NCBI GenBank assembly: GCA_016946835.1
Contig: JACVTC010000199.1
Location: 175,001-216,421 of the forward strand
DNA length: 41,421 nucleotides
Direction: 5' to 3'
Source: Neocallimastix lanati (nom. inval.)
Taxonomy: Eukaryota; Neocallimastigomycota; Neocallimastigomycetes; Neocallimastigales; Neocallimastigaceae
The position numbers were made by a program, and so were the translations under genes. The stretch's first letter is position 1. Each line of letters begins with the position of its first letter. Shown piece by piece: positions 4,543 to 41,297 of the stretch. The notes beneath the pieces are model-generated. The model did not search any database and was not told the origin of the DNA. It saw nothing but the letters and a program-made list of their open reading frames with translations.

Positions 4543-4614
4543 CTCAACATAGGGGAATCGAACCCCTGCCGCCACGGTGAGAGCGCGGAATCCTAGCCAC
4601 TGGACCAATGCGGA
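4543..4614 (-). tRNA. tRNA-Glu (anticodon CTC)
   Basis: Read on the minus strand this is a 72-nt tRNA. The D-arm region is GGTCCAGTGGCTAGGA, the anticodon stem is CCGCG/CGTGG around the loop CTCTCAC (anticodon CTC, Glu), and the T-arm is AGGGG-TTCGATT-CCCCT. It has no intron and no encoded CCA. The acceptor stem TCCGCAT/ATGTTGA has one G-T wobble and one C-T mismatch, so slight decay is possible. A and B boxes are intact and a T7 terminator follows. Element A begins 15 nt upstream of its 5' end. This is the only host gene I can support, and it probably marked the integration site for the whole stack. Confidence 0.9.
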
Positions 4615-4629
4615 TATTACATTTTTCTT

Positions 4630-5520
4630 TGATAAGAATGTACTAAATAATGCATTCTTAATTAAATCTACGATTTATTTCTAATACATTATGTGTACAT
4701 TATTATTTTTGTACTTTAATAAATTTTTAAATTCAAAGATTAAAAATTAGATCAAAAATTATATTAAACTTTATAATTTTTATATTAAATCTTATATTAA
4801 TAGTAATATTTTTATATATTTAAAACTTATATTAACAATATTAATAATAAATCTTATTTTTTTATTTTTATATTAATAATGAAAATTTGTATTAATAATA
4901 TTTTTATATATTGATAATTAAAAATTTATATATTATATTTTAACTTTTATTATAAAATTTTATATCGAAATGTTTTATTTTATATTGAAAAATATTTTAT
5001 TTTATTAAAAACCTTTATATTAGAATAGTATTTTTATTTTTATTTGAATATTTTAACAGATTGTAATAAAAATTTTAGCCAATTAAATAAATTCTTATTA
5101 GTAATATTTTAGATATTTTTAAATAAATAAATAAAAAAAAAAAAAAAAAAAAAAAAAAAAAAAAAAAAAAAAAAAAAAAAATGTTTTATTAATATTATAA
5201 ATGTATTTTATTTATATTGTTATAATTAAATTTTATATAATTAATTATAAAAATCAATTTAAATTTAATAGTTTTTATAAAAAAAAAAAAAAAAAAAAAA
5301 AAAAAATAAATAAAATGTAATTTAGTGGCAAGAACAACTTTTATGCCTTGAAAAAAAGTATAAATAGTTGTAAATTTTGCTACTAATTTTTAAATATCAT
5401 CAAAAAAAATAAAATAAAATAAAATAAAATAAAATAAATTTATAAATAAAAATAATAAATAAAAAAATAAAATTTGTGTTTCCTTACTTTATTTTTATTT
5501 AATTCTCTAAAACCTTAACA
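4630..5520 (+). repeat. 5' LTR of element A
   Basis: 891 bp, starting TGATAAGAATG and ending CCTTAACA. It contains two long poly-A runs (about 5113-5180 and 5279-5306) that are matched in the right copy apart from 3 nt. Confidence 0.93.
5359..5367 (+). promoter_or_regulatory. Candidate TATA box in 5' LTR of A
   Basis: TATAAATAG in the U3-like part of the LTR, 154 bp before its end and beside one of the few mixed-composition stretches. The motif is weak evidence in DNA this AT-rich. Confidence 0.4.
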
Positions 5521-5526
5521 TTTATA

Positions 5527-5543
5527 TGGTGGCGATATCGGGG
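5527..5543 (+). promoter_or_regulatory. Candidate primer binding site of A
   Basis: TGGTGGCGATATCGGGG begins 6 nt after the LTR. Its complement would end ...CGCCACCA, matching the 3' CCA expected of a tRNA primer. I cannot name the tRNA. The pattern resembles the shared site in B and D, TGGTGGAGAATCCGGGC. Confidence 0.6.
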
Positions 5544-5833
5544 AATTAAATAGAAATAATAGTAAATAACATAGATTTTTTTTTAATTTTTTTTTTATTT
5601 TATATTGATAAACAAGTAAGTCGTTAATCCTTTGATTAACCCATGGCGCTTGTTTGATATATATATATAAAAAAAATTTTTTTAAATAAGTAAAATTAAG
5701 ATTCTAAAAAAACAAATTTTGTAAAATTATAACAAGGAGCGGATAGAGCTCATACACAGTGTATTCTCAGATAGCAACAAATTAACTCTATTCATAGTAG
5801 GTTATTGAATAGTAGTTAATTTGGAGATTAATT

Positions 5834-5963
5834 GGAAAGTAGACGAAGGTATTTGGTTACCGACCCGGTAATAATAGTTCAACCTTCAACGTTTCAACAC
5901 ACGAAGGTGCGGGTACTTTCCAAGCACTGGCGAATAAGGAGCTTACGTCACCGAAGGCGTAAG
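5834..5963 (+). promoter_or_regulatory. Structured leader RNA domain of element A
   Basis: A less AT-rich block rich in perfect inverted repeats. Outer stem GGAAAGTA (5834-5841) pairs with TACTTTCC (5914-5921). It encloses hairpin TTACCG/CGGTAA (5857-5862/5866-5871, 3-nt loop) and hairpin ACCTTC/GAAGGT (5882-5887/5903-5908). A separate hairpin, CTTACG/CGTAAG (5942-5947/5958-5963), has an inner CC-GAA-GG. Its place between primer site and gag suggests packaging, dimerisation or translation control, which is inference. Confidence 0.55.
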
Positions 5964-6540
5964 ATTGTTTTTTTTATATAATTTTTTTTACTTTTCTTTG
6001 TGCTAGTTATAAGGCACTTTATTATATAAAGTATCAGACTTTGGCTAACTTCGCCATTTAAATTTTTTTTATTTTTTTTTATTACTGGTACTTTATTTGT
6101 TATATAATTCCTGTAATAGAATCTTAATTTACTTTGAAAATATTGTGTTTTTAGTTAATTTTTATTAGTTAATAAAAATATTATTGAATACTTTTAAAAT
6201 TTTTTTATTCCGTACATAGATTATCGGATTAAGTTTATCCTACATAGTAATTGGGCTAGTGGGCTCTGAACTGCTATATTTTATATTGAATATAGTAATC
6301 GTGGCACACGCGTGGCATGACACCATTAGGTAAGCTGCACGTCAGACAGTGTGTACTATCAGATTGTACGACAATAAAGATTATTTTTTTGTATTTAATA
6401 ATTATAATTAATTAATAATTTTATTAGCTATAACAATACAATATTTATCGTTTAAAAAGAAAAATTTTTGAAAGGTGAAAATAATAAATAAAACTTTGCT
6501 TCTAAATTTATTACTACAAATATACTAAATTACAAAATTC

Positions 6541-38789: not shown

Positions 38790-38790
38790 A

Positions 38791-39327
38791 GTGTTATATG
38801 AAGAGGGGAGGAGGAATGTAGTTGCTGATGCACTATCTAGATTATATTCTAACAATGAAAAATATATAATCAAAAATATGAAAAATGATGATAAACATAT
38901 AAAAAATAAAAATAAAAGAAATAATATAAAAAATAATAATAAAGATGTATTCAACCAAGTTATAAATAATGAAATTCAAAATTGTGAAATTAAAAATAAT
39001 GAAGAAATTAGAAATAAGAAAAATACTAAAATTAATAAAATAAAAGAGTTAGTGGATGAAATTAAGATCAATAGTAATAATGAAAATTACAAAATGGAAT
39101 ATGAGGAAATTAAAAATAATGTAAATAACATTAATAAGTTTAATAATAAATTACATAATAATAATAGTGAAAATAATGGAGTGGAAAATAAATTGAATGT
39201 GAATTATATGGTATTTCAAACTGAAGAAAATAATAAACATAGTTTTAATAATAAGATAATAATAATAATAATATTAATCATGTTAATACCAATAATAATG
39301 ATATTGATGATAGTACTGAAATACTAA
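38791..39327 (+). pseudogene. pol: Pol of element D, RNase H end and Asn/Lys linker
   Basis: 178 residues in the next frame. It begins with the end of RNase H (GRRNVVADALSRL, matching GKKNVVADALSRM of B) and continues into the low-complexity linker before integrase. It loses the homologous frame within an AAT-rich run near 39250-39290, ending in a meaningless Ile-rich tail. Confidence 0.82.
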
Positions 39328-40265
39328 ATGATTTCTATAAAAAAATAATAAACCAGAAATTTGTATTAATTGATGGAGTACAGTATTATAAAGATAATAA
39401 TGAATTATGAAAAGTAATATTTAATGATAATGAAAAATGGGAACTTATTAGTAAAGCTCATTGTTTAGGACATGAAGGTAACTTTAAAACCTACCATCGT
39501 TTGAAAAGGAACTATTATTGGATAGGAATGAATAAGGATATCAGATTATTTATTAAATCTTGTCATGTATGTCAATTATGTAAACCACAACCACCGAATG
39601 TATTTACAGAAGATTTAGCTACACCCCCAGGTTTACCTTTTACTCGGGTAGGATTGGATTTAGTTGAACCCTTATACGAATCTTTCAGAGGTAATAAATA
39701 TATAATAGTACTTGTAGATTATTTAACAAAATGGGTGGAAGCTGAAGCATTAGCCAAAACAGAATCAGAAGATGTCATTAGATTTTTAAATAATATATTT
39801 TCAAGACACGGGATTCCAGAGATACTAATTACTGATAATGGCCCGCAATTCATATCTGATAAAACAAAAGCTTTCCTAGATTTAAATGATGTCTATGTAC
39901 ATTATATTAGTACTTATCATCCTGCTTCCAACGGAGAAGTAGAAAATAGGAATAGAGAAATAGTCAAATATATTAGAATTCTTAAAAGCCAATTTAAAGA
40001 ATTAAGTAAACAAAATCAAGAATGGGATGATATTTTACCTAGTGCACTTTGGGCTTTAAGAACAACAAAAAATGAAGTTACTAAATTTAGTAGTTTCGAA
40101 TTACTCTATGGTAGGAAAGACTTACAACCATTTGAATTAGCAATTAATATTGACAAAAGATTTCCTGAAGAATCAGAAGAAGAATATTTTGTTCGAAAAT
40201 TTATTAATCACCATAATTGGATTTCTGAAGCAATCAAAAATATTGAAACTGCAAATGAATTATGA
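39328..40265 (+). pseudogene. pol: Pol of element D, integrase core with nonsense codon
   Basis: The third frame resumes homology before the integrase zinc region. It carries an in-frame TGA at 39408-39410, where B has Arg in ILRKVI. After it, an HHCC-type region and an integrase core follow (the ORF from 39501 has 254 residues), with DDE-type motifs LDLVEPL, ITDNGPQF and NGEVENRNREI. The first motif reads VEPL where B has IGPL. Relative to B a few residues (SQFKELSKQ region, about 39987-40013) are inserted. The frame ends at TGA 40263-40265, where a Trp codon of B appears to have lost one G. Confidence 0.85.
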
Positions 40266-40507
40266 AAGATAGGAGAAGACAGATTAAAAGATTAAGAAGT
40301 GAATTCAAACCAGGAGACCTAGTTTTAGTTAGAAATTTCAATCGAAGGAAACTAGACCCTTATTATATCGGACCATTAAAAATAGTTAAACAGCAATTTA
40401 ATACTGTCACAGTATGTGATCCTTATACGAACGAAATTGCAGAGAGAAACATTCATCTAAAAAATGTAATTCCATATATTAGTAATTTCCTAAATTATAA
40501 TCAGTAA
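40262..40507 (+). pseudogene. pol: Pol of element D, integrase C-terminal module
   Basis: 81 residues in a fourth segment. It contains the basic stretch RRRQIKRLR, the GDLVLVRNF strand and DPYYIGPLKIV, the GPY/F-type module of Ty3/gypsy integrases, and aligns to the end of B Pol. It ends at TAA 40505-40507; there is no chromodomain. Poly-A and (AT)n fill 40508-40620. Confidence 0.85.
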
Positions 40508-40657
40508 AAAAAAAAAAAAAAAAAAAAAAAAAAAAAAAAATTATGATATATATAAAAAAAAAAAAAAAAAAATATAAAAAAAAAATATATATATATATAT
40601 AAAATATATAAAATATATAATAGTATTATTAGTTTAATAAATATTTTAATATGCTTA

Positions 40658-40680
40658 TAGACTTCAAGGGACGAAGTCTA
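40658..40680 (+). promoter_or_regulatory. Conserved hairpin before 3' LTR of D
   Basis: TAGACTTC (40658-40665) pairs with GAAGTCTA (40673-40680) around the loop AAGGGAC, the same loop as in B with an outer stem that differs yet still pairs. GTGGGGGCATCT follows and abuts the LTR; GGGGCATCT also abuts the LTR in A. Confidence 0.7.
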
Positions 40681-40698
40681 AGCTAAGTGGGGGCATCT

Positions 40699-41297
40699 TG
40701 ATGCAATGTCCAGTAAAATAATAGAAAATAATAGAAAAATTATTTAGAAAAATTATTAATATAAATATTTATTAAAAATTAATTTTATATATGAATCTTA
40801 AAATATATTATTAAAGATAATTTATTATTATTAATAATTATTAAAATATTAAATTAAATAATAATATTAAAAATATTAAAAGAATTGTTGATAATATAGT
40901 AAATTAGTTATATTAATTATAACGGAGATTGAATGTTTAATTAAATTGATGTTAATATTAAATAATTTTTAAATAATGTTAAACAATATGAATTAATAGT
41001 TATAAGTAAAAGTTATGAATATTTATATTTATTAATTAATTTTAGTGTTTCGATAAATAAAATTTATAAAATTAGTAAAAATATAATTATGAAAATAATT
41101 TATAAATAAATATTTTCTTTTTTTAAGGAATAATAATAAAACATGTATTTTTTTTATGATAAAATATAATAAATAAAATAATAAAAGATAATAAATAAAA
41201 AGTAAATATAATTATTGTAATATAATATTCTTGGAGTAATTCCCTTTTGCACAAACGCCCAACTAACATATACGGTATTTAATAAAATATCGTATCA
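40699..41297 (+). repeat. 3' LTR of element D
   Basis: 599 bp, TGATGCAATGTCC...ATCGTATCA. It shows ten or more single-base or indel differences from the 5' copy, several in homopolymers and several in the first 30 bases. This gives the exact border of insertion X by comparison. Confidence 0.9.

Follow-up and report, generated by a model that had tools for sequence, protein, structure and literature searches.

Long terminal repeat (LTR) retrotransposons that integrate beside genes transcribed by RNA polymerase III (Pol III) form an already known class, and in the parts of the review PMC5911963 drawn on here its members come from Ascomycota and dictyostelids. Here we describe a stretch of 41,421 nt (the window) from a genome that probably belongs to the fungal phylum Neocallimastigomycota, in which LTR elements lie end to end on one strand upstream of a tRNA-Glu(CTC) gene. 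The element next to the gene is a full-length Ty3/gypsy retrotransposon, designated A.

The closest described systems are quoted from excerpts of the papers cited. The intasome of Ty3 docks on TFIIIB, cuts at -6/-2 relative to the transcription start and leaves a 5-bp duplication, and its vestigial chromodomain binds Brf1 and acts as a ruler (PMC8632968); it integrates in both orientations (PMC5911963). DGLT-A, with 20 insertions in D. discoideum, lacks a chromodomain and lies about 15 bp upstream of tRNA genes (PMC5006619), in either orientation (PMC5911963). Stacking is on record for dictyostelids too, in a table footnote that notes other elements at the same tRNA gene, upstream of an earlier insertion (PMC5006619). 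Insertions of Tj1 in Schizosaccharomyces japonicus lie near 5S genes and a few bp ahead of tRNA genes, in the latter case 5-11 bp from the end of the mature tRNA, and point in the same direction as the gene; the intact copy has a 5-bp duplication, and its authors were aware of no further wild-type LTR element whose orientation is fixed (PMC4600332). Tca8/beta of Candida albicans and Ylt1, Tyl3 and Tyl6 of Yarrowia lipolytica are further tRNA-associated Ty3/gypsy elements, all from Ascomycota (PMC5911963, Table 1), and the excerpted parts of that review describe no columns of many families for them.

The column at tRNA-Glu(CTC)

The column very probably records repeated integration of LTR retrotransposons steered by Pol III factors, with one slot being reused. 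The window is the final 41 kb of contig C111 (genome 199 Mb in 762 contigs), and its GC content is 8-34% per kilobase. Its features are:

4543-4614, minus strand: tRNA-Glu(CTC), the Pol III target gene (Rfam tRNA, 47.2 bits)
4615-4629, no strand: 15-nt slot between the tRNA 5' end and the first LTR, with TTCT at 4625-4628 (the original left duplication of B) and TCTT at 4626-4629 (that of A)
4630-12719, plus strand: element A, full-length Ty3/gypsy (LTRs 4630-5520 and 11833-12719)
12720-12723, plus strand: right copy of A's duplication TCTT, its final T being the first base of B
12723-21673, plus strand: element B, full length (LTRs 12723-13258 and 21141-21673)
21674-21677, plus strand: junction B/E, TTCT
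21678-29366, plus strand: solo LTR E, split by C (506 nt without C and one duplication copy)
21809-28986, plus strand: element C, chromodomain Ty3/gypsy inside E, with a 5-bp duplication GAATG and no Pol III gene at its site
29367-29370, plus strand: junction E/F, TTCT
29371-30393, plus strand: solo LTR F, with internal 54-nt repeats
30394-30397, plus strand: junction F/D, TTCT
30398-41297, plus strand: element D, damaged full-length Ty3/gypsy close to B (LTRs 30398-32819, with an insertion, and 40699-41297)
30448-32258, approximate ends, no strand: insertion of about 1.8 kb in the 5' LTR of D, with the head of a tRNA-derived short interspersed element (SINE) at 31323-31397 on the minus strand
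41300-41421, plus strand: start of a sixth LTR of the TGGTAAAG family, cut by the contig end and preceded by a 2-nt junction at 41298-41299

Outward from the tRNA gene the order is thus A, B, E (split by C), F, D and the beginning of the sixth LTR. The LTR of A begins at 4630, 15 nt from the 5' end of the tRNA. The junctions B/E, E/F and F/D each consist of TTCT between a CA end and a TG end, whereas junction A/B consists of TCT plus the first T of B, giving A a 4-bp duplication TCTT (4626-4629 and 12720-12723). An earlier note on this DNA had described a same-strand stack with these junctions and A at 15 nt, and this observation was confirmed. The TTCT junctions, taken together with the 4-bp duplication rule, argue for one insertion site that was reused repeatedly.

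Because TCTT includes the first base of B, and because B's own left TTCT persists at 4625-4628, A inserted after B and between B and the tRNA gene. Only this order is fixed by nucleotides; the sequence does not tell in which order the other members arrived. The idea that each new copy lands between the tRNA and the previous copy therefore holds for A against B and would be an extrapolation for the rest. The same applies to the proposal of a dated column, as the LTR pairs give weak dates: A shows no substitutions in 887 positions (two gaps) and B none in 533 (one gap), and the LTRs of D differ by less than 1% (5 mismatches, gaps aside, in alignments of 561 and 51 columns).

The column had been thought to end at D, with TTTGGAAAG as the flank of the ancestral empty site. 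Neither claim survives, since D is followed by another LTR at 41298-41421 (85% identical to loci L190 and L222, 86% to L055) and the supposed flank is itself LTR sequence. Contigs C275 and C610 carry an F that is 100% identical to that of the window and are probably the same locus continued or duplicated. Further out on C275, a junction (L235, G000:C275:20300-20760) leads to an LTR start that matches the tRNA-Glu slot of locus L187 at 98%, so the column may extend past the sixth element. Element C was rejected as a column member because of its 5-bp duplication and its position inside E; the earlier note listed E as a solo LTR, to which the interruption by C is added here.

A copies and tRNA genes across the genome

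The first 331 bp of A were used as the query for a genome-wide survey, in which the 40 best of 1385 candidates were scored and 30 loci were read. All 40 scored matches were 100% identical, so this sample is biased to young copies. Sixteen of the 30 loci were 3' LTRs with a polypurine-like tract ahead. A lack of enrichment near tRNA genes would have spoken against the earlier note, and these samples showed no such lack. All 14 remaining copies adjoin a Pol III head: seven a tRNA gene (Ser twice, Trp, Gln, Glu, Val and Met) and seven a SINE head, six of these lying ahead of forward copies and one being touched by the 3' end of a reversed copy. The gap between A and the tRNA is 14-15 nt in six of the seven cases. 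The six forward SINE heads were recognised by eye from words resembling an A box and a B box. By eye count, 21-23 nt separate the A-box-like word from the LTR, which is consistent with a gap of about 15 nt; ARAGORN made no call on these six. A copy 15 nt ahead of a full SINE head was also met by chance in the sample drawn from tRNA genes (L177). Loci L059 and L077 have identical flanks and may be one locus.

An exact 4-bp duplication was present in all 11 A copies with both flanks read (nine of nine paired copies, one solo LTR and the A of the window). Outside the window the duplications are ATTT, TCTC, ATGT, TTAT, TTTT (twice), TGTC, TTTA, CTTG and ATTG. With ten different sequences among 11 duplications it is the position that is fixed and not a motif, and TTCT was rejected as a target motif.

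In 21 of 23 cases A is oriented away from the Pol III gene, and in the other two it faces the gene, a split with a one-sided probability of about 3e-5 under even chance. The 21 comprise the 13 forward copies, the copy in the window and L143, L155, L161, L177, L185, L193 and L215. Selection after insertion could also have produced this outward bias. Further outward copies, outside this count, were seen in the second tRNA sample (L034/L035, L039).

Stacking is not confined to the window, and the tRNA-proximal stacks expected elsewhere were found with the same spacing at other loci. Judged by eye, 15 of 17 outer ends of A elsewhere adjoin another LTR-like start (two bases further out on C90), among them A beside A (C68) and A tail-to-tail with A (L071); the outer ends of L076 and of the reversed copy do not. 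Among 20 starts of B, three were 3' LTRs and two stood at a tRNA (Val, Leu), with a gap of 13-14 nt. Of the other 15, 14 have by reading a sequence ending in CA 3-6 nt ahead of them, several flanks being near-identical (L080/L081/L091, L087/L088, L093-L095). For F, 18 of 20 starts lie 3-5 nt from a CA end by reading, 14 of them at exactly 4; the other two were a 3' LTR and a start with nothing recognisable ahead. ARAGORN found no tRNA within the up to 200 bp read ahead of these 20 F starts, and F copies stand at tRNA genes in L014, L167, L203 and L213. The pattern of B and F fits older elements buried behind younger ones, F and A having been sampled differently. Eight longer stretches were fetched for stack depth. 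Only L222 showed an in-register junction: the stack was read through a whole solo LTR, and the duplication CCTT repeats before the next LTR. L220, L221, L224 and L226 run into full-length elements, and L219, L223 and L225 gave no resolved junction. The counts leave out the pattern TTCTTGATACGG, in which LTR starts are mixed with reversed ends.

The converse survey started from tRNA genes. An Rfam tRNA search of the genome gave scores for only 63 of 9278 candidates, and those whose type was checked were mostly tRNA-Arg(TCT). The survey therefore relied on B-box patterns: GGTTCGANTCC gave 855 matches (23 in the reversed control) and GGTTCGANTCCS 422 (13 in the control), with 100 places listed for each. 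Loci were fetched blind to LTRs, namely the first 60 of the GGTTCGANTCC list and 40 of the GGTTCGANTCCS list. The latter were hand-picked in contig order, thinning C70, C71, C78, C137 and C170 and skipping places already fetched as well as C74, C94, C111, C149, C160 and C188. These 100 loci yielded 48 tRNA units after removal of L168 (short flank), L154 (masked) and 50 that were SINEs, pseudo-heads or tRNAs unnamed by ARAGORN. The assumption that every GGTTCGANTCC match is a tRNA gene was rejected, since many are SINEs.

A TG lies 12-17 nt upstream in 41 of the 48 units, compared with 2-17 of 48 for 6-nt windows placed between 18 and 83 nt, and in 39 of 48 homology to other loci begins, by reading, 9-17 nt upstream. 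The tRNA slots and the LTR starts of the window fall into 31 groups, 11 of them with at least two members, from which we estimate some twenty or more LTR families; single-member groups may be decayed or not LTRs. Twelve tandem tRNA pairs have an LTR-like start before the first tRNA by eye, and 10 of the 12 match other loci. To use these pairs as a control, with elements ahead of the first tRNA and none in the gap between the two, was circular, as pairs are recognised by their adjacency. Many close pairs, Cys-Gly and Asn-Arg, look dicistronic (L166, L169, L170, L172-L174, L186, L196, L197, L200, L201, L218; L019-L022, L024-L026).

A second sample of 30 loci around tRNA-Arg(TCT) was less independent, and the enrichment was less clear there, with TG at 12-17 nt in 26 of 44 units (27 of 47 with the three units of L234, which were excluded; background 2-20 of 47, duplicates kept). 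Several Thr genes and Arg copies of C555 had no recognised LTR in this sample. The three tRNAs of L234, a repeated unit of C94, showed one TG in the slot without a match, one 38-nt match to the start of B and one neither. A large share of tRNA genes, not all, is thus occupied. Within C94 the B-box matches of the L234 stretch are spaced at about 11 kb, and they are met again on C160 and C188; the three tRNAs read show no clear slot LTR. G000:C555 carries at about 170-399 kb a dense one-strand run of more than 30 tRNA-Arg(TCT)-like genes (type checked in L048).

The SINE family found in the 5' LTR of D recurs among the loci of the tRNA-first survey. For one SINE family an LTR start occupies the slot in three of 25 full heads (L148 by eye) and in none of 12 truncated heads, a difference too small to serve as a control. 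Nine 5S-like matches were obtained and seven upstream flanks read. L227 (G000:C293), a 5S rRNA gene, has by eye an LTR-like start, TGATACGGTA, 8 nt upstream; the flanks of L228, L229 and L232 (one common unit) and three more showed no LTR-like start.

Structure and coding of the elements

The Ty3/gypsy order of reverse transcriptase (RT), RNase H and integrase between LTRs was assessed in A to D and found in A, B and C, and in two separate pieces in D; E, F and the sixth element are known as LTRs alone. The main open frames of A and B are:

6878-7816, plus strand: A, gag-like open frame with a zinc-knuckle-like motif (by eye)
7780-11814, plus strand: A, pol open frame (RT, RNase H, integrase), ending about 40 residues past the GPF motif
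15905-20653, plus strand: B, pol open frame (protease-like, RT, RNase H, integrase)

A Pfam scan gave no match for the gag-like frame of A. The coding sequence of B upstream of pol is spread across three more overlapping frames. The aspartic protease match in Pfam lies just above the cut-off for B and just below it for D, with none for A. In the same scan of A, B and C a chromodomain was found in C and not in A or B, whose integrases end about 40 residues after the GPY/F motif; the integrase end of D falls beyond the last of its listed open frames. If Pol III factors guide these elements, their contact with the integration complex must consequently lie elsewhere.

Identities of 51-52% (A-B), 72-76% (B-D) and 34% (A-C) indicate that A, B and D are related Ty3/gypsy elements. 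The best PDB match of A is Ty3 Gag-Pol, 7q5b. Among its listed pol relatives two are labelled Orpsp1_1 (50% and 56% identity), which we take to be the Joint Genome Institute code for Orpinomyces, a genus of Neocallimastigomycota; the other named ones are from a pseudoscorpion and a grass (28-43%). The host is accordingly probably an anaerobic gut fungus. No relatives of A were found in the viral contigs searched. The primer-binding site of A gave no match to a priming tRNA, and the corresponding words of B and of other elements match several loci.

The LTRs of C differ by 2 substitutions in 777 positions plus two gaps, and an array of 36-nt repeats (22601-22950) follows its 5' LTR. The 54-nt repeats of F (29425-29748 in the window) seem expanded in other copies (G000:C225, C235). 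The left end of the insertion in the 5' LTR of D is similar by eye to parts of L031 and L225; as L225 continues into an apparent gag-like frame, the ~1.8-kb insertion may be LTR-related.

Mechanism and comparison with known systems

We propose that an integration complex guided by Pol III factors, presumably TFIIIB/TFIIIC, would cut at a nearly fixed distance, about 15 nt ahead of the mature tRNA, and duplicate whichever 4 bp lie there, A mostly entering with its 5' LTR facing the Pol III gene. As the ruler would start at the gene, a later element would land in almost the same place, inward of the previous one, and older members would be pushed outward. Recombination between LTRs would reduce old members to solo LTRs.

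Several observations weigh against this proposal. The outer flank of D lacks a repeat of TTCT, copy L078 lies 4 nt from its tRNA-Met gene and not 15, and two A copies (L058, L198) are reversed. Rfam, up to an E value of 0.5, gave no match in five of the six loci whose SINE heads were recognised by eye (the sixth, L069, was not submitted). The slots of the second tRNA sample are less filled, and the occupancy of SINE heads is low.

An integrase recognising an existing LTR end or a short motif such as TTCT, rather than the Pol III complex, would make LTRs grow beside LTRs. TTCT does recur within the window, and most A copies lie at a site that offers a Pol III head as well as an older LTR start, so that the two cues are usually confounded. 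The variable duplications of A beyond the window and the copy at a SINE head without LTR-like sequence seen on its other side (L057/L058) make this improbable. Still less credit is given to random insertion followed by selection, with survival limited to copies next to Pol III genes. Insertions into genes would be lost, and the vicinity of tRNA genes is described as a safe haven in the part of PMC5911963 drawn on. Yet a very AT-rich genome of this size should hold much neutral DNA, and every sampled A lies within a few bases of a Pol III head, in a register at base level that selection fails to explain; most of the A candidates lie outside the sample on which this judgement was based. The least credible explanation is that one block of tRNA and stack was copied by segmental duplication or arose as an assembly artefact through collapse. 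Duplicate sets of junctions do exist (C111/C275/C610; L034/L035; L031/L032/L040; L093-L095), but tRNA types, duplications and neighbouring LTR families differ between loci.

On a broader interpretation we are evenly poised, namely that the ~15-nt slot, SINE heads included, would be a docking slot common to some twenty or more LTR families, that the integrases of at least A and B would read a Pol III factor without the chromodomain ruler of Ty3, and that at least A would follow an orientation rule opposite to that of Tj1. If the slot is read in this way, the columns would be stratigraphic records in which the order of retrotransposon waves is readable at many loci. The columns could also serve to date element families relative to one another at many loci, and a SINE head that is occupied might belong to a SINE still able to assemble Pol III factors. 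Within the known class, this case stands apart by its host group, in which a large share of the tRNA genes sampled show the behaviour, by how many LTR families use one slot, by the frequency of columns, by a duplication of 4 bp and by the outward bias. Among the papers listed in searches of open-licence literature, none describes, judging by title and abstract opening, such columns, SINE targets or this behaviour in Neocallimastigomycota.

The parallels with Ty3 and DGLT-A drawn in the earlier note hold for position and fail for orientation, and for Ty3 also for duplication length and integrase tail. Like Ty3 of S. cerevisiae, A is a Ty3/gypsy element that inserts just upstream of Pol III genes independently of target sequence. 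Unlike Ty3, it makes a 4-bp duplication and prefers one orientation, both A and B would manage without a chromodomain ruler if Pol III factors guide them, and many LTR families share one slot. DGLT-A resembles A in features, as distinct from phylogeny, in that it lacks a chromodomain and lies about 15 nt upstream of tRNA genes; it too may contact a Pol III factor elsewhere. A differs from it in using both orientations unevenly. With Tj1, A has in common that it is a fungal Ty3/gypsy element upstream of Pol III genes with an orientation preference. A, however, mostly points away from the Pol III gene, and a bias opposite to that of Tj1 has implications for the orientation that the Pol III complex gives to the intasome.

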